From Bacterioplanes sp. (GTDB taxonomy: Bacteria; Pseudomonadota; Gammaproteobacteria; Pseudomonadales; Oceanobacteraceae), in NCBI GenBank assembly GCA_014859445.1, contig JACUUC010000007.1, forward strand, positions 1 to 64,000: 64,000 bases of DNA. Reading direction: 5' to 3'. Shown piece by piece: positions 4,722-26,769 of the stretch. The notes below the pieces were generated by a model. The model was not told where the DNA came from, did not search any database, and saw nothing but the letters and a program-made list of their open reading frames with translations. Every line of letters begins with the position of its first letter. The stretch's first letter is position 1. The position numbers were made by a program, and so were the translations under genes.

Positions 4722-5549
4722 ATGCCAATTGCCAGTCTATTTGCCGAATCACAGGCGCTGCCACACATTCCCAAAGTCGTTATGGAGCTAATAGAAAGTT
4801 TCAAAAATGAAGATATCGACTTCGATACATTGGGCAAAAAAATCGCTCTCGATCAGGCACTGACTGCCAAAGTATTGCGTCTAGCCAACTCGGCTAAATT
4901 TGGTGCAGCAAGAACCATTGCTCATCCGAACGATGCGGTGGTGGTTCTGGGATTTGATACGTTACGCACTCTGGTCTTGGCCTCGGGAATGACCTCGGCA
5001 TTCACCACCCCCCCACAATTTGATCAAAAGCAATTCTGGCGTACGGCATTTGGTGTCGCGGCATTGAGTAAATGGTTAGCCGAATACACCAACAACGTCG
5101 ATAAAGAGGTTGTCTTCACCTGCGGCATGCTGCACTCGATTGGCGAACTGTTACTCCGCATCCTTAAGCCAGCAAACATGATATTAATAGACGAGGCCAT
5201 TGCCTTAGGCGGCAAACCATACAGCAGCGAACAAGCCAAACTGGGGTATACCTCTGCTGAAGTCGGTGCCGAATTGGCCAAACGTTGGAATTTTCCCATC
5301 ATTATGCAACAGGCAATTCTTGATCAAAATAATCCCGCGTTGGATAAAGACTACGATACCATCGCAGGGCTGTTGTTCATTGCCAAATACTTGCTGCACG
5401 CTCAGCAGCAGGATTGGACTGAAGAAAACATTATTGAGCACTTCCCCACGCCGGTCGCCCAACATATTGGGTTGGATGTTAACCGTGCCTACGCAGACTT
5501 AGCATCGACCAACACACTCAACTCCGGTTTGGATGGGCTACTCGAATAA
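4722..5549 (+). CDS. HDOD domain protein
   Basis: 275-residue cytoplasmic protein made almost wholly of one HDOD domain, a degenerate relative of the HD phosphohydrolase fold. It shows the family opening LPHIPKVVMELIE, the segment ALTAKVLRLANSAKFG and the helix DAVVVLGFDTLRTLVLASG. Residues aligned to the HD metal site are not conserved, as usual in the family (for example CGMLHSIGE). HDOD proteins often act as signalling scaffolds linked to c-di-GMP or chemotaxis. No output domain is fused here. AAGGA lies 8 bases before the ATG. The last 61 bases overlap the convergent ATP-grasp gene. Confidence 0.88.
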   Translation: MPIASLFAESQALPHIPKVVMELIESFKNEDIDFDTLGKKIALDQALTAKVLRLANSAKFGAARTIAHPNDAVVVLGFDTLRTLVLASGMTSAFTTPPQFDQKQFWRTAFGVAALSKWLAEYTNNVDKEVVFTCGMLHSIGELLLRILKPANMILIDEAIALGGKPYSSEQAKLGYTSAEVGAELAKRWNFPIIMQQAILDQNNPALDKDYDTIAGLLFIAKYLLHAQQQDWTEENIIEHFPTPVAQHIGLDVNRAYADLASTNTLNSGLDGLLE

Positions 5550-6502
5550 GCCGCAAACCACGTCTGACTACAGGCAACTCGCTCAGCGACCGGCATTCGC
5601 AGTGAATGCCTGCTGAGCGCATCAACCCGTTGTAACCGATGCAATAAACCAACCCCATTGGCAACTTGAATGGCCAATCCTGGGCGAGCATTAAGCTCCA
5701 GCAACACAGGCCCTTTTTGATCATCCAATACCAAATCAACGCCCAAATATCCCAATCCAGTTAGGTCATGACAACGCGCCGCCACCGCTAACACTGATTG
5801 CCACTGAGGTATTCGCAAGCTCGCTAAGCAACGACCATTATCAGGATGCAGAGTAATTTCTTTTCCAAACTGCACGGCATTCAAGGCAATGCCTGTAGCA
5901 ATGTCCAAACCAACACCAACGGCACCTTGATGAAGATTTGCCTTACCATCAGACGCCCGAGTTGGTAAACGCACCATGGCCATCACCGGAAAGCCACGAC
6001 AAACAATCACTCGAATATCGGGCAATCCTTCGTGAGCAAATTGTGCCAAATAGTCATTAACAGCGATCCGCTCCTCAAGTAAAGCAACATCGGGGCGGCC
6101 ACCCAAACTGTGCAGCCCAGACAGCGTATTGGATACGTGACGCTGTAAATCATGCAAGGTCACCACACTACCACTGGCCTTCAAAAAGACATCGTCTTGC
6201 TGCTCGGTAATAACAACAATCCCTTTGCCAGCACTGCCGTTTGCAGGCTTTAGCACAAAGCCATTACTCTGCTGATGCAAGACACTGGCAAAATTCATCA
6301 CATCATGCTGGTGACAGATGGTGGCCAATAACTCCGGCGTGGGAATACCAGCCTGCTGTGCCAGTAGCTTGGTTTTTAATTTGTTATCCACCGTAGGAAA
6401 TAAGTGACGAGGGTTATAACGTCCAATGTAATTCACATTGCGTCGATTCATACCCAAGATGCCTTTTTCTGCCAGCTGCCAAGGCCAAATAAATCCACTC
6501 AT
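5489..6502 (-). CDS. RimK-like ATP-grasp ligase (alpha-L-glutamate ligase-like)
   Basis: 337-residue ATP-grasp enzyme. An N-terminal region GRYNPRHLFPTVDNKLKTK precedes the ATP-grasp fold. It has the phosphate-binding glycine loop FVLKPANGSAGKGI, then LLEERI, DIRVIV, and the metal-binding end of the domain with GVDLV and LLELNARPG. Such enzymes join an amino acid to a carboxylate through an acyl phosphate. The acceptor here is unknown. It is the third gene of an operon after the inactive transglutaminase (3-base gap) and the retropepsin-like lipoprotein. This arrangement was described in genomic surveys of amidoligases. The 3' end overlaps the HDOD gene by 61 bases. Confidence 0.85.
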   Translation of the reverse strand: MSGFIWPWQLAEKGILGMNRRNVNYIGRYNPRHLFPTVDNKLKTKLLAQQAGIPTPELLATICHQHDVMNFASVLHQQSNGFVLKPANGSAGKGIVVITEQQDDVFLKASGSVVTLHDLQRHVSNTLSGLHSLGGRPDVALLEERIAVNDYLAQFAHEGLPDIRVIVCRGFPVMAMVRLPTRASDGKANLHQGAVGVGLDIATGIALNAVQFGKEITLHPDNGRCLASLRIPQWQSVLAVAARCHDLTGLGYLGVDLVLDDQKGPVLLELNARPGLAIQVANGVGLLHRLQRVDALSRHSLRMPVAERVACSQTWFAAYSSSPSKPELSVLVDAKSA

Positions 6503-6505
6503 GAT

Positions 6506-8047
6506 TTATGACCTAAAAACACGGAAGCGACGTAATTCAGTTAACCGATAGCCCGTATAAGAACCCAACAACAAGACCAAAGCCATCACAATAAATTGCA
6601 CACCAATAAAATTAAAAGTGAGGTGGCGTATTAATGGATCACTCATCGCCCAATAGGCCAAGATGGCCGTTAATAAACTCCCTCCTCCTTGTATCATGAC
6701 TTCTCTACCACCTTCTTCTTCCCACAAGATGGACATGCGTTCGATAGTCCATGACAAAATAATCATTGGGAAAAACGTAATTTTCAGCCCTTCGCTGAGA
6801 CCGACCTTATAAGCCAACACGCTAAAGACACTGATGATAGCAATCACACTGATAATCACCGCGGTAATTCGCGCTACCAACAGCAAGTTCAGTCGAGACA
6901 AATAACCTCGAATAATCAAGCCCATTGAGACAACCAATAAAAAACCAATTACGCCCGTCACCAATGAAGTCTGCACGAAAGCCAATGCAATCAATACCGG
7001 CATGAATGTCCCCGATGTACGAATACCCACCAAAATGCGCAAAATACAAACGATTAAGGCACCGATGGGTAACAATAAAATCGTTTGAAAAATGGCTTGT
7101 TCTTCAAGTGGTAATCCGTGAATGGAAAAATTCAAAAAGTCGTATTGATTCGACAAGCTTTCGGCAACACTGCCATAAGCACCTTCTTGGCGTCGAATCA
7201 TAGCAAAGCGAATCGTCGAAGCATTGCCACCGACAACTTCTAGCACAGGCGTTCCCTGCTCTTCCCAGAGCAACATATCGGCCATTTGCAAATCACCCGG
7301 CAACGCATAAAACTCGGTACCCGGTAGCGCAAACAAACGACTCTCATCCCCCTGCCATACCCGCAACACCGGGATCAATGCTTGCCGACGGCGGCCATCT
7401 TGTAAGTGCAGCGCGTGTACAACACTGGCAGGAATTCGCGCCTTATGGAGCATATCCACTAATAATGTTGGGAATTGCTGATCAAACTGCAATTGCAACA
7501 TCTGCACATGCTGTAAGGGCGCATTGCTGTCGAATAATTTCAGCAATTCACGCGTGAGACTGTAATTATCGGCGGAGGTTGCTTGAGCACGATTCAATAA
7601 ATCCGCGATAGCACTCGCCGCTGGCTCAGCCCATTGCACCGATTTCAATTCGGGAGCAGGAACAGTCACGGCCCCCTGACTAGGACTATGCAAAAACTCA
7701 GCACGGTAATACAACTGCTGTCGGCCTTGGGCCGTACGGACCGTCCATTCAGCATGACGATGACTACCTTCGTCGTAAAAGTTCAGCCCATAACCCGGTG
7801 AGGCGCCCGTTTCATTCATTAATACGTACGATTTTTGGGTATTGGGTCGAGCCATCAGCACTCGCACCGGATCACCATTGGCACTGAATTCGATCCGCGC
7901 TTCAACCGACCAGAGAGTATGAGAATCACCTGGCGTCAAAGGCACTTGAAAGACCCAATGACGATGAACTAATAATGCTATTCCCACCAGCAATAGCACA
8001 ACGATAAGAACATAAAAGCCGTTATGGCTGCGTTGCGCTGAGGTCAT
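6506..8047 (-). CDS. Inactive transglutaminase fused to membrane helices (7TM)
   Basis: 513-residue inner-membrane protein. One helix near the N-terminus (about 10-30) is followed by a periplasmic region to about residue 320. That region includes a transglutaminase-like stretch (about 200-260) without a recognisable Cys-His-Asp triad. Six to seven closely packed helices follow from about residue 325 to 500. This matches the inactive transglutaminase/7TM family found beside RimK-like ligases. It probably holds or presents a peptide or carboxylate substrate at the membrane. The ATG at 8047 is preferred to the TTG just upstream. It overlaps the end of the protease gene by 26 bases, so translation is likely coupled. 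Confidence 0.8.
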   Translation of the reverse strand: MTSAQRSHNGFYVLIVVLLLVGIALLVHRHWVFQVPLTPGDSHTLWSVEARIEFSANGDPVRVLMARPNTQKSYVLMNETGASPGYGLNFYDEGSHRHAEWTVRTAQGRQQLYYRAEFLHSPSQGAVTVPAPELKSVQWAEPAASAIADLLNRAQATSADNYSLTRELLKLFDSNAPLQHVQMLQLQFDQQFPTLLVDMLHKARIPASVVHALHLQDGRRRQALIPVLRVWQGDESRLFALPGTEFYALPGDLQMADMLLWEEQGTPVLEVVGGNASTIRFAMIRRQEGAYGSVAESLSNQYDFLNFSIHGLPLEEQAIFQTILLLPIGALIVCILRILVGIRTSGTFMPVLIALAFVQTSLVTGVIGFLLVVSMGLIIRGYLSRLNLLLVARITAVIISVIAIISVFSVLAYKVGLSEGLKITFFPMIILSWTIERMSILWEEEGGREVMIQGGGSLLTAILAYWAMSDPLIRHLTFNFIGVQFIVMALVLLLGSYTGYRLTELRRFRVFRS

Positions 8048-8804
8048 CAATCACGGTCTCTGGTACATATTTGTTATGAATAAACTTACGGCCAACATCA
8101 ATCAACACGACATCACGTAAGAACTGTCGACCTAATAAAATGGGGTAACTCATTTGACTTCGATCCGTGAGAGTAAACTCTGCCTCCTGTTGCAATCCTT
8201 GCCCCAAATGCAGCATCAATCGAATCACCGGTCTGCGTTCAGTTTCATCACTACTGACTTGTCGAATAATGGCATTGCGCATGATTTCAGCCTCAATGGT
8301 TAAAGTACCATCGGCCGCTTCGTCATCATGCTGTAACTGGAAACGCACCCAGCGTTTGCCATCACGCTCAAATCGTTCTATTTGGGTGGCACTGAGTGAT
8401 GACGTGGCCGCACCACTATCCACTCTTGCTTCAAAATGTCGCTCTAATATTGGCAAATAAATCCACTCGGCTTCACCAATCACAACCCGACCGTCGTAAT
8501 CGGGGAGTGATTCTGGCAAACGACACTCAGGAACTTGAAAGGGCAAAGTTCGATTTAATAAGTCCGTCAGTTTTTGATCCAACTGACGAAATGACTCATC
8601 GTATTCGATGGCATTCGATTCAAGAATAATCGGTTCACAGGTCGTATTGTCTAGATCAGCTATTTGCTGCTGAAGGCTGTGCATACGAGCGCCAACCAAT
8701 GTATCAATGGACTCTAATGTGACAGTGCGATGAGACTCACTCGGCCAGAGTGCACATCCTGTCGTCAAGAATACAACCGCAAACAATGAGGCCCAACGGG
8801 GCAT
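8022..8804 (-). CDS. Retropepsin-like (RimB/ATP-dependent zinc protease family) lipoprotein
   Basis: 260-residue lipoprotein. The signal helix and lipobox TTGC place the acylated cysteine at residue 17. A helical stretch (about 30-85) separates the anchor from an aspartic protease-like domain with the active-site motif D129-S-G-A. This family is named ATP-dependent zinc protease in databases, but the motif is retropepsin-like. It is first in the operon with the 7TM transglutaminase and the ATP-grasp ligase, and may trim or remove what the ligase adds. The ATG at 8804 follows GGAG at 8 bases. An upstream GTG lacks support. Confidence 0.8.
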   Translation of the reverse strand: MPRWASLFAVVFLTTGCALWPSESHRTVTLESIDTLVGARMHSLQQQIADLDNTTCEPIILESNAIEYDESFRQLDQKLTDLLNRTLPFQVPECRLPESLPDYDGRVVIGEAEWIYLPILERHFEARVDSGAATSSLSATQIERFERDGKRWVRFQLQHDDEAADGTLTIEAEIMRNAIIRQVSSDETERRPVIRLMLHLGQGLQQEAEFTLTDRSQMSYPILLGRQFLRDVVLIDVGRKFIHNKYVPETVIDDLSATQP

Positions 8805-8884
8805 AATGCTTCTCCACACTTAACCATTTGGTATTAAACCACAGCAATTCAACGGAATAGCAGAGTATCGACAATTCAAATAAC

Positions 8885-8911
8885 AAAAAAGCCTCATCAC
8901 GAGGCTTTTTT
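8885..8911 (-). terminator. Bidirectional Rho-independent terminator after bfr pair
   Basis: AAAAAAGCCTC (8885-8895), a five-base loop, and GAGGCTTTTTT (8901-8911) form a perfect stem with A and T tails. On the minus strand it lies 56 bases after the second bacterioferritin stop. It separates that unit from the protease/transglutaminase operon downstream. Confidence 0.92.
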
Positions 8912-8966
8912 CACAGCAACAATCTGTTTCAAAACAATGGCTCAAATCGACCTAGAAAAAGCAATA

Positions 8967-9437
8967 TCACGCCATTTGCGATTGCAAATAATTGGGCAAC
9001 CCAATTTTTTCAATCAAGCCGAGCTGCTGCTCCAACCAATAGGTGTGATCGTTTTCCGTATCCGTAAGCAATACCTGCAACATTTCTCGCGTTTGATAAT
9101 CTTGCACTTGCTCACACAACGCCATGACGTCACGCAAATCATCAATGACTTTGTATTCCAATGCCAAATCGCTTGTCAGCATAGAGGGCACATCGTTACC
9201 GATATTCAAAGGAACACGCGCCACCATGTTAGGCGTGCCGCCTAAAAATAGAATGCGCTCGATGAGTTGTGATGCATGTTGTTTCTCATCTTCAAATTCG
9301 TGATCAATACGCTCAAATAACTTTTTTAAGCCCCAATCGTCGTACATACGCGAATGGATAAAATACTGATCCATGGCACTGAGTTCGCCGGCCAGCAGGT
9401 CGTTCAATTTTTCGATAACTTGTGCGTTGCCTTTCAT
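8967..9437 (-). CDS. bfr: Bacterioferritin, ferroxidase-type subunit
   Basis: 156-residue bacterioferritin subunit, a four-helix bundle of the 24-mer iron store. All ferroxidase ligands are seen: E18, E51, H54, E94 and the E128-x2-H131 pair (shifted by one residue against E. coli). The haem-ligand position Met52 is lysine here, so this subunit should oxidise iron but not bind haem by itself. The ATG at 9437 follows GGAGG at 6 bases. The partner gene 12 bases upstream has the opposite defects, which implies mixed shells. Confidence 0.93.
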   Translation of the reverse strand: MKGNAQVIEKLNDLLAGELSAMDQYFIHSRMYDDWGLKKLFERIDHEFEDEKQHASQLIERILFLGGTPNMVARVPLNIGNDVPSMLTSDLALEYKVIDDLRDVMALCEQVQDYQTREMLQVLLTDTENDHTYWLEQQLGLIEKIGLPNYLQSQMA

Positions 9438-9449
9438 GGTCAACCTCCG

Positions 9450-9914
9450 TTACATCATGGATTGCTGATAATTCTCAATGCCCACTTGAGCAATTAACGT
9501 CTGTTGCGTTTCCAGCCAATCAAGATGGGACTCTTCATACTCATGAATCTCTTCAAGCAATTCACGAGTGACGTAATCACGAATCGACTCACAGTATGCA
9601 ATGGCGTCTTGCAAAAGCAATAACTGCTCCTCGATTTGCTCAACATCGCATTGCAGCATTTCAACGGTATGTTCGCCAATACGTAAACGATTCAGCTTTT
9701 GCAGATTCGGCAAACCTTCCAGAAAGAGGATACGCTCAATCAGGGCATCCGCTTGTTTCATGTCTTTAATCGACTTTTTGTACGAAGACTCGTTGAGAGA
9801 CGATAGTCCCCAATGCTTGAATAACCGTGCGTGTAAAAAATACTGATTGATCGAGGTTAACTCGACCGCCAACAGTTTATTTAACCAGTCAATAACTTGA
9901 CGATCGCCTTTCAT
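9450..9914 (-). CDS. bfr: Bacterioferritin, haem-binding subunit
   Basis: 154-residue bacterioferritin subunit starting MKGDRQVIDWLNKLL. The haem ligand M52 is present, but three ferroxidase ligands are changed (E51 to D, H54 to Q, E94 to I). E18, E127 and H130 remain. It should bind haem at subunit interfaces without an active diiron site. Paired subunits of this kind are known in Neisseria and Pseudomonas-type bacteria. The ribosome-binding site AAAGGAGAG precedes the ATG. Only 18 bases separate it from the DUF2947 gene, leaving little room for its own iron-regulated promoter. Confidence 0.93.
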   Translation of the reverse strand: MKGDRQVIDWLNKLLAVELTSINQYFLHARLFKHWGLSSLNESSYKKSIKDMKQADALIERILFLEGLPNLQKLNRLRIGEHTVEMLQCDVEQIEEQLLLLQDAIAYCESIRDYVTRELLEEIHEYEESHLDWLETQQTLIAQVGIENYQQSMM

Positions 9915-25749: not shown

Positions 25750-26769
25750 ATGAGTCGCAATAAAGCCATCACCATCGCCGGTCAAACCGTTCAACCTGGG
25801 GAGCATCGTAAAATTGAGTTGGATGCCGTGAAATTGTCCACCAATACCTCCGTTGCCATCCCCGTTTCCGTTCATGTAGGTCGCCGAGCAGGACCTACCT
25901 TGTTTTTAAGCGCCGCGATACATGGCGATGAATTAAATGGCATTGAAATCATTTCACGCATCATCAAAAGCGCGCGTCTGGAGCGACTGCGCGGCACCTT
26001 AATTGCTGTGCCAGTGGTGAACGTCTATGGCGTCATCAACCAAAGTCGTTATTTACCCGATCGCCGGGATCTGAACCGATCGTTTCCGGGGTCTAAGCGA
26101 GGGTCGCTGGCGGCGCGCATGGCCAATTTATTTTTAGAGGAGATTGTCAGCCTGTGCGATTACGGCATTGATTTTCACACCGGTGCCATTCACCGCAGTA
26201 ACTTGCCACAAATTCGCGCCAACCTAGACGATGCCGTTACCTCACAACTGGCACACGCGTTCGGCGTGCCGGTATTGCTCAACGCCAACTTACGTGACGG
26301 GTCATTGCGCCAATGCGCCGCAGAAATGGGCACTCGTATTTTACTCTATGAAGCAGGTGAAGCGTTGCGATTCGATGAACTCTGCATTCGCGCCGGTGTT
26401 CGTGGCACCATCAATGTGATGCGCGCGCTCAACATGCTACCCGCCTCATCGCGACAACGCCCCAAAGCAAATGTCGAGCCAGTCGTTGCACGTTTCAGCG
26501 CGTGGCTGCGAGCAACCGATTCCGGTTTTGTTCGTTACCGCAAACAGCTCGGCGATCAAATTCAAGTGGGGGAGGTGTTGGCGGACATTTGCGATCCGTA
26601 TGGCGAATGCCTGGATCAAGTCATTGCCAATCAAGAAGGGATTGTGATTGGCAAGCAAAACATTCCCCTAGTTCAAGAAGGCGAAGCCATTTACCACATC
26701 GCCTACTTTCACAAACCCGATGACGTATCCGAGAATATTGAGTTATTGCAAGATACCCTACTGGACTAA
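25750..26769 (+). CDS. Succinylglutamate desuccinylase/aspartoacylase family protein
   Basis: 339-residue zinc-dependent deacylase of the M14-related AstE/AspA group. Candidate zinc ligands are H58 and E61 in AAIHGDELNGIE and H143 in IDFHTG. An Arg-rich substrate loop (YLPDRRDLNRSFPG) precedes the third ligand. The C-terminal part (about 255-330) is a lipoyl-like barrel with GFVRYRKQLGDQIQVGEVLADI, common in this subgroup. The acyl substrate is not evident, and no arginine succinyltransferase genes are nearby. The last 12 bases overlap the convergent solute-binding protein gene. Confidence 0.85.
   Translation: MSRNKAITIAGQTVQPGEHRKIELDAVKLSTNTSVAIPVSVHVGRRAGPTLFLSAAIHGDELNGIEIISRIIKSARLERLRGTLIAVPVVNVYGVINQSRYLPDRRDLNRSFPGSKRGSLAARMANLFLEEIVSLCDYGIDFHTGAIHRSNLPQIRANLDDAVTSQLAHAFGVPVLLNANLRDGSLRQCAAEMGTRILLYEAGEALRFDELCIRAGVRGTINVMRALNMLPASSRQRPKANVEPVVARFSAWLRATDSGFVRYRKQLGDQIQVGEVLADICDPYGECLDQVIANQEGIVIGKQNIPLVQEGEAIYHIAYFHKPDDVSENIELLQDTLLD

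Follow-up and report, generated by a model that had tools for sequence, protein, structure and literature searches.

In the window, the 64,000-nucleotide stretch of DNA analysed here, three genes form a single minus-strand operon with the order rloA-rloB-rloC, at the position 5489-8804 given by the original prediction. The features referred to below are:

8022..8804, minus strand: rloA, a lipoprotein retropepsin, probably outer-membrane, with a catalytic DSGA (PF05618; PDB retropepsins)
6506..8047, minus strand: rloB, a TM helix, a periplasmic dead-transglutaminase domain and a C-terminal 7TM domain, PF14402 (Pfam; AlphaFold2 model)
6506..7138, minus strand: the 7TM part of rloB, its better conserved portion (column identity in the RloB alignment)
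5489..6502, minus strand: rloC, a cytoplasmic ATP-grasp ligase, alpha-L-glutamate ligase-like (TIGR02291; PF14397)
8885..8911, minus strand: a terminator-like hairpin between rloA and the upstream ferritin gene (12-pair stem and T tail)
25750..26769, plus strand: an AstE/AspA-type hydrolase of 339 aa (the only PF24827 match of the genome)

The genes are overlapping or near-touching, as had been stated: rloA and rloB share 26 bases and 3 bases separate rloB from rloC. A convergent HDOD gene overlaps the 3' end of rloC by 61 bases (5489-5549). The hairpin may delimit the rlo unit from the ferritin gene; the interval 5400-9000 holds four terminator-like sites vs a mean of 3.3 in shuffles, i.e. 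not above shuffles.

The rloA frame extends from the ATG at 8804 (in-frame GTG at 8819) to the stop at 8022 and encodes 260 aa. It matches PF05618 (E 1.7e-39, 135.3 bits for a cut-off of 27), a clan AA retropepsin family with a D-S/T-G motif, here D-S-G-A at residues 134-137 in the numbering of the 265-aa reading. The N-terminus carries a lipobox-like L-T-T-G-C with Ala as the +2 residue, which under the lipoprotein sorting rule points to the outer membrane. RloA is thus probably an outer-membrane lipoprotein here; 112 residues lie between the lipid Cys and the catalytic Asp, and this form, a lipoprotein on a long tether, is a feature of the window's lineage. The PDB retropepsins 9g59 (E 1e-22) and 9g58 (E 2e-15) are matched. 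In the alignment of RloA relatives the catalytic Asp is kept in 126/126 rows, and the polyglutamate-contact positions nearly as often: K46 (R or K) in 124, R114 in 125 and R137 in 124 of the 126. Numbering and role of these contact positions are those of PMC12239564, mapped onto the window RloA through PDB 9g58, whose numbering agrees with D48, R114 and R137.

The rloB frame begins at the ATG at 8047 (preceded by a TTG at 8050), stops at 6506 and encodes 513 aa, with PF14400 (E 1.3e-50) and PF14402 (E 1.1e-104). Its transglutaminase region had been called catalytically dead, rightly so: the Cys-His-Asp triad is absent, with D, I and A at those alignment columns. The AlphaFold2 model (pLDDT 84.9, pTM 0.71) predicts a transglutaminase-like periplasmic domain (PDB 3isr, Z 14.2, rmsd 3.9, 217 aligned). 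Among 47 dead-type RloBs the mean column identity is 0.69 in the 7TM part vs 0.47 in the periplasmic part, and the 7TM residues R338, P351, R381, P428 and R438 are at 1.00 in all 55 RloBs aligned.

The product of rloC has 337 aa and matches PF14397 (E 6.6e-93). With TIGR02291 it scores 412.1 bits, above the curated cut-off of 314.2, the glutamate substrate being given by the family name only. K85, D162, R164, R178, D256, E269, N271 and R273 are at 1.00 in a set of 128 RloC rows (E <1e-80, >280 aa, fragments and RimK-like rows removed); these invariant residues presumably include the ATP-grasp catalytic ones. The identities and compartments first proposed, with a ligase and a protease in one unit, are upheld. 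So are, as judged from alignments, the predicted active sites (catalytic Asp and substrate Arg positions of RloA, putative ATP-grasp residues of RloC).

In this gammaproteobacterium the trio represents rloABC, in a variant whose RloA is a lipoprotein. It can no longer be called an undescribed system, for which it had first seemed a candidate: a 2025 publication on rloABC of Pseudomonas aeruginosa reported both genetics and a substrate cut in vitro (PMC12239564). In that work RloA cleaved stretches of 8 or 10 glutamates in vitro and left stretches of 6 uncut, and it also acted on the polyglutamate tail of a protein. Mutants without the RloA enzymes die in low salt and are rescued when rloB or rloC is lost as well, an epistatic relation; osmotic survival, biofilms and antibiotic tolerance are all influenced by the system (PMC12239564). 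The two operons have in common the three families, their order, strand and inferred compartments, and the catalytic and polyglutamate-contact positions of RloA. They differ in RloA, a lipoprotein with its 112-residue Cys-to-Asp stretch and a DSG in place of the DTG of the paper, in whose main text the word "lipoprotein" is absent (PMC12239564). The window proteins are moreover too diverged for the narrow NCBIfam models: RloA stays below the curated cut-offs of NF052262-NF052264 (best 106.6 vs 210 bits) and RloB below that of NF052267 (307 vs 900 bits). Another RloB from an rlo operon (L068) also falls short (474 of 900 bits), so that cut-offs of this type apparently admit only close relatives.

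The operon is real and widespread. The 7TM gene occurs in 56 of the 274 genomes sampled from the window's class, about one fifth, after removal of one false match: a PF14402 match in genome G077 (E 5e-4, below the cut-off) is by eye a sodium/solute symporter and was dropped. The trio co-occurs, as it should if it is one system, with A-B-C order on one strand in each of the 80 named loci retained, which are the top 80 among 586 relatives (the RloC match of L150 is an 86-aa fragment). This recurrence indicates that the arrangement is not due to chance. Among 48 diverse dead-type loci, RloA lies directly upstream in 46. The two others (L045 and L077) have no adjacent RloA, and the one retropepsin found in each of these genomes is of the RimB type; dead-type RloB-RloC can thus apparently exist without RloA. 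The same genomes served to examine Rlo as a substitute for osmoregulated periplasmic glucans, an idea that we rejected: MdoG (PF04349) is present in 14 of the 56 RloB genomes vs 27 of the 218 others, an excess and not an exclusion. The window's own genome has no MdoG.

The transglutaminase triad is intact in five of 55 RloBs (57 rows less L058 and L059, whose RloB frames are short), which form a sister clade, loci L050-L054. What these loci share with the window operon is a gene for a PF14402 7TM protein and, after it, one for an RloC-like ligase. They differ from it by the intact triad, the lack of RloA (5/5), a TPR protein downstream of rloC (5/5; confirmed by Pfam in the two scanned) and, in L054, the fusion of RloB and RloC in a single 838-aa frame. 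The fusion is consistent with RloC acting at the cytoplasmic end of RloB; L054 has an unsure position in the tree, on a long branch. The association of live triad with RloA absence gives a Fisher p of 7e-6, which counts loci rather than events and, with a single live clade in the tree, i.e. one evolutionary event, does not measure strength. A third branch (L055-L057) matches the Pfam active transglutaminase core with an incomplete triad, so that a Pfam match alone does not prove transglutaminase activity.

A search for conserved fourth members had also been proposed. None is universal among rlo-neighbour genes of at least 90 aa, but 9 of 57 loci have an AstE/AspA-type hydrolase next to rlo genes. 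Its placement takes three different forms, and eight of these nine proteins have a signal peptide by eye. On the RloB tree a single clade of nine rows holds seven of the nine loci with AstE; the association thus arose perhaps three times, not nine. Relatives without signal peptide adjoin RimB-RimK in three of the five stretches looked at, and a distant relative stands beside pgsBC, preceding pgsB in Cetobacterium. The window hydrolase (25750..26769) matches the profile of the rlo-linked AstE proteins with E 1.1e-83; by eye it has no signal peptide, and a RimB-RimK pair is also encoded in this genome, on contig C13. The hydrolase is possibly the partner of that pair, on the other contig, and not of the trio. 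Neither the AstE link nor the live-transglutaminase form is mentioned in passages of PMC10318531 and PMC3597751, two papers citing Iyer et al. 2009, to which the survey of such genes is credited.

The reading that we favour, with a probability of roughly 55%, assigns the synthesis of (poly)glutamate, at RloB, to RloC, its outward movement to RloB and its trimming to RloA. RloC, at the cytoplasmic face of RloB, would polymerise glutamate at the expense of ATP, the chain being either free or attached to a carrier. The 7TM part would pass or present this chain to the periplasm, where the dead transglutaminase domain may hold it and RloA, tethered to the outer membrane, would cut it to a tolerable length; low-salt death would come from a periplasm swollen by excess polyanion. 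Polyglutamate as the product, RloB as the mover and this swelling as the cause of death are what we infer. The conservation of gene order, the conserved residues of RloA and RloC, the RloB-RloC fusion, the adjoining AstE/AspA hydrolase with its relatives at RimB-RimK and pgsBC and, in one clade, the live transglutaminase that goes with RloA absence argue for this reading. Against it stand the single event behind the live-clade pattern, the clustering of the AstE loci, the two loci without RloA (L045 and L077) and the weak profile and fold comparisons given below. It also counts against it that no report of polyglutamate in a periplasm was found in the literature examined.

The PgsBC/CapBC poly-gamma-glutamate synthase resembles RloBC in pairing a ligase with a small polytopic membrane protein; PgsB, unlike RloC, is not known to be an ATP-grasp enzyme. 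The RloB 7TM part and PgsC share by eye a similar motif, G..T.G...P...AL. The profile comparison is nevertheless not significant: hhalign probability is 0.2-2.2% over eight alignment versions. Column-shuffled controls of three alignments reached the real score in 41, 1 and 1 of 120, and the reversed alignment outscored the real one in the first of the three and fell below it in the other two. At a loose cut-off the alignment is weak; two of four versions are colinear and the other two run in a different register. RloB has no Pfam/NCBIfam match to the PgsC/CapC families PF14102 and TIGR04011, and a PgsC-type sequence profile has no match in the PDB at E 1. Pattern scans of viral contigs revealed no relative of RloB or of PgsC (the PgsC query, a single sequence, finds close relatives only), and a viral structure library gave no match below E 0.001. 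Homology between the 7TM domain and PgsC is thus an unproven lead.

We propose only tentatively that RloB-RloC acts as a synthase and exporter of polyglutamate in Gram-negative bacteria, an ATP-grasp counterpart to PgsBC, building an alpha-linked polymer in the periplasm, with three unrelated hydrolases (the RloA retropepsin, the live transglutaminase and the AstE/AspA-type enzyme) alternating across lineages as trimmers.

The tag-and-remove cycle originally suggested, in which RloC would extend the tail of a single envelope protein with glutamates ahead of its export or in the course of it, RloB help to display the protein and RloA remove the added residues, is possible but in our view rather unlikely. 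It has a precedent in RimK and RimB acting on the ribosomal protein RpsF (PMC11957791), the protein tail cut by RloA in vitro (PMC12239564) speaks for it, and the TPR protein of the live clade could be a target or a scaffold. But no protein is known to carry the tag, the 25 largest neighbour clusters (linked genes of at least 90 aa, diverse and named loci) contain no recurrent candidate target, and a cytoplasmic ligase would need to act before export. Polyglutamate, free or bound to a carrier, is no worse a fit; RimK itself also makes free poly-alpha-L-glutamate (PMC11957791).

Wall peptidases are often of the transglutaminase/papain fold. RloBC could be imagined to modify peptidoglycan or its precursors (e.g. 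adding Glu onto stem peptides), with RloA or the live transglutaminase trimming the branches, and the cell shape, ampicillin and hypo-osmotic phenotypes of P. aeruginosa are in line with this (PMC12239564). We consider it quite improbable, as RloA in vitro needs runs of more than six glutamates (PMC12239564) and no recurrent peptidoglycan gene was recognised in the 25 neighbour clusters, a weak test.

Finally, the 7TM domain could be an ion-translocating or sensing unit of the NqrD/E-RnfA/E-Mtr fold whose gating RloC and RloA adjust, no polymer being made, as the osmotic phenotype and 10 of the best 13 structural rows for the 7TM model (RNF, Na+-NQR or Mtr chains; best 8ahx_A, Z 8.7, rmsd 3.5, 129 aligned, the next two Z 8.1 and 8.0) might suggest, but this is very improbable, since the Z scores lie below the tool's trustworthy level for helical models, the Foldseek E is 0.89, two anion-channel rows and one ABC-transporter row are mixed in, and the glutamate-specific RloA is left unexplained.

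The RimB-RimK system is like rlo in its retropepsin, its ATP-grasp Glu ligase and, in three of five stretches, its AstE/AspA-type hydrolase; it differs in that RimB has no signal peptide, that there is no membrane protein and that it acts on RpsF or on free poly-alpha-L-glutamate in the cytosol. If RloB-RloC were indeed a synthase-exporter, rlo would amount to the cytoplasmic RimK-RimB-AstE set put to use again in the envelope. A glutamate product located in the periplasm is what the fusion protein, the live-transglutaminase clade and the AstE/AspA hydrolase suggest, and they also indicate where to search for it.

All three genes are on the minus strand and run rloA, rloB, rloC; the first two overlap by 26 bases, the last two are 3 bases apart, and Pfam and NCBIfam identify each of them clearly. 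The features concerned are:

5489-6502, minus strand: rloC, ATP-grasp ligase (PF14397; TIGR02291 score above its cut-off)
6506-8047, minus strand: rloB, dead transglutaminase and 7TM protein (PF14400 and PF14402)
8022-8804, minus strand: rloA, lipoprotein retropepsin (PF05618)
8885-8911: 12-pair terminator-like hairpin between the trio and the upstream ferritin gene, in a region where the number of such sites is not above chance
25750-26769, plus strand: AstE/AspA-type hydrolase without signal peptide, the genome's only PF24827 match

The 3' end of rloC shares 61 bases (5489-5549) with that of a convergent HDOD gene. Two adjacent ferritin-family genes (158 and 154 aa; 8967-9914, minus strand), likely a bacterioferritin pair, lie upstream of rloA.

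The original prediction put the trio forward as a candidate for an undescribed system. This fails because the operon was published in 2025, as rloABC of P. aeruginosa (PMC12239564); the question it raised about the substrate still stands. According to that paper, RloA cleaves in vitro runs of 8 or 10 glutamates and not of 6, P. aeruginosa lacking all three RloA enzymes does not grow in low salt, and deletion of rloB or rloC rescues such mutants. Sucrose partially rescues the low-salt phenotype, and its authors bring up two ideas of their own, that of free polyglutamate and that of an osmolyte role for glutamate. The rlo operon is also among the suppressor insertion sites listed for P. aeruginosa in PMC7314104.

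The catalytic Asp is present in 126 of 126 operon RloAs; its motif is D-S-G in the window, the second residue being Ser in 39/126 and Thr in 84/126. Eight RloC residues have a conservation of 1.00 (128 rows), and we take them to be typical ATP-grasp active-site residues. The window RloB lacks the transglutaminase triad; over 47 dead-type rows conservation is 0.69 for the 7TM part versus 0.47 for the periplasmic part. Three further RloA positions, which we mapped onto the published numbering via PDB 9g58, are those tied to polyglutamate in PMC12239564: K46 (R or K in 124/126), R114 (kept in 125/126) and R137 (124/126).

PF14402 matches occur in 57 of 274 gammaproteobacterial genomes, 56 once a false hit is removed. 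One genome has a second copy, and the RloB loci thus number 57, window included: 48 canonical (dead-type), five whose transglutaminase is live (L050-L054) and another four in which RloC is not adjacent (L055, L056, L057, L059). RloA lies directly upstream in 46 of the 48 canonical loci (exceptions L045 and L077), and RloC downstream in 46 (exceptions L039 and L058, each of which lies at the end of a contig). The ABC order is kept in 80/80 named loci, which are the best 80 of 586 RloB relatives, hence close ones; in one of them (L150) the RloC match is a fragment. Among the 25 largest neighbour clusters (genes of at least 90 aa, about 6-10 kb around) no further family occurs in more than eight diverse loci. 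Three side observations concern individual loci. At L039 (1926-5452) RimK-like and RimB-like frames stand head to head with RloA-RloB, making the two systems neighbours; at L033 (6749-8675) a second ligase frame of 315 aa, a weaker match to the RloC profile, directly follows rloC; L055-L057 form a third PF14402 branch, with a transglutaminase-core match, an incomplete triad and no adjacent RloC.

A simple lipobox rule assigns a lipoprotein signal to the window RloA and to 77 of its 80 named relatives, as well as to 8 of the 45 other diverse RloAs. Of these eight, seven make up the rest of the window's own clade in the tree (8 rows, support 100/100); the remaining one, L078, may have matched falsely. 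The window RloA has 112 residues between the lipid Cys and the catalytic Asp. When 88 RloAs of the lipoprotein kind are aligned, conservation along this segment is poor, as would be expected of a tether. The word "lipoprotein" is absent from the main text of PMC12239564.

The predicted RloB model (pLDDT 84.9, pTM 0.71) has a periplasmic domain resembling 3isr, a putative cysteine protease (Z 14.2, rmsd 3.9, 217 residues). For the 7TM part modelled alone (pLDDT 77.5, pTM 0.73), 10 of the first 13 rows are membrane subunits of RNF, Na+-NQR or Mtr, its best matches, with Z 6.7-8.7, a range reached by helical models without kinship, and a Foldseek E of 0.89. PgsC resembles this part by eye, although the profile comparison is not significant. 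Separately, several Pseudomonadota genomes encode roughly 1080-aa proteins that carry a tandem pair of CapC-type domains (L092-L108); they score above the PF14102 cut-off and, where searched, below that of TIGR04011.

Cys, His and Asp are retained in 5 of 55 RloBs (L050-L054), and the three scanned (L050, L052, L054) match the Pfam transglutaminase core. All five live loci have RloC (split over two frames in L051), none has RloA, and in each a related protein follows, which is a TPR protein in both cases scanned. Only 2 of the 56 RloB genomes lack any PF05618 match, both of this clade (G071, G197); the other three have unlinked retropepsins without signal peptide by eye, that of G181 adjoining RimK and an AstE-type gene, and G033 has RloA solely in its second, dead-type rlo operon. 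A secreted retropepsin thus seems to be missing from four of the five genomes. Since the clade is one branch of the tree, the live triad together with the absence of RloA counts as one evolutionary event. It suggests that the RloB periplasmic domain once processed the product and RloA took over later, or the reverse. In L054 a single 838-aa frame continues from the RloB 7TM part into RloC without a break, so that RloC would sit at RloB's cytoplasmic end.

The likeliest mechanism is that RloC joins glutamates into a chain at RloB, which carries the chain into the periplasm, where RloA trims it; product, linkage and transport are what we infer. An excess of periplasmic polyanion would draw water in, which would be consistent with the low-salt lethality, with its partial relief by sucrose and with the rescue of mutants that have also lost rloB or rloC. 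L045 and L077 count against this mechanism: each seems to combine RloB and RloC with a genome devoid of RloA.

In eight diverse loci the rlo genes adjoin one for an AstE/AspA-family protein (PF24827 in the three scanned) that, judged by eye, has a signal peptide. Its gene follows rloC at -4 to 21 bases in seven and is divergent from rloA in L040; in a ninth locus, L070, a related frame lies upstream of rloA at a contig end. The seven all fall within a single clade of nine rows in the RloB tree, so the association is better counted as three origins than as nine. In three of five stretches around unlinked retropepsins, RimB and RimK are accompanied by a relative that lacks a signal peptide. The poly-gamma-glutamate genes pgsB-pgsC of Cetobacterium are preceded by a distant relative, which shares 23.5% identity with the L082 protein over 204 residues. 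Literature searches, extended to RloB's other names, to amidoligase with transglutaminase and RimK, and to Pfam names and accessions, found, among the papers listed and the passages cited, no link between PgsC/CapC and the inactive transglutaminase, nor between RimK and AstE-type enzymes; a 2009 survey may have priority for the AstE link as well as for the form with a live transglutaminase. The window's own AstE/AspA-type protein belongs to the type found alongside RimB-RimK in three other genomes, and its genome has a RimB-RimK pair at another place. In our reading a single chemistry is at work in two compartments, as RimK-RimB-AstE inside and as RloC-RloA, sometimes joined by AstE, outside.
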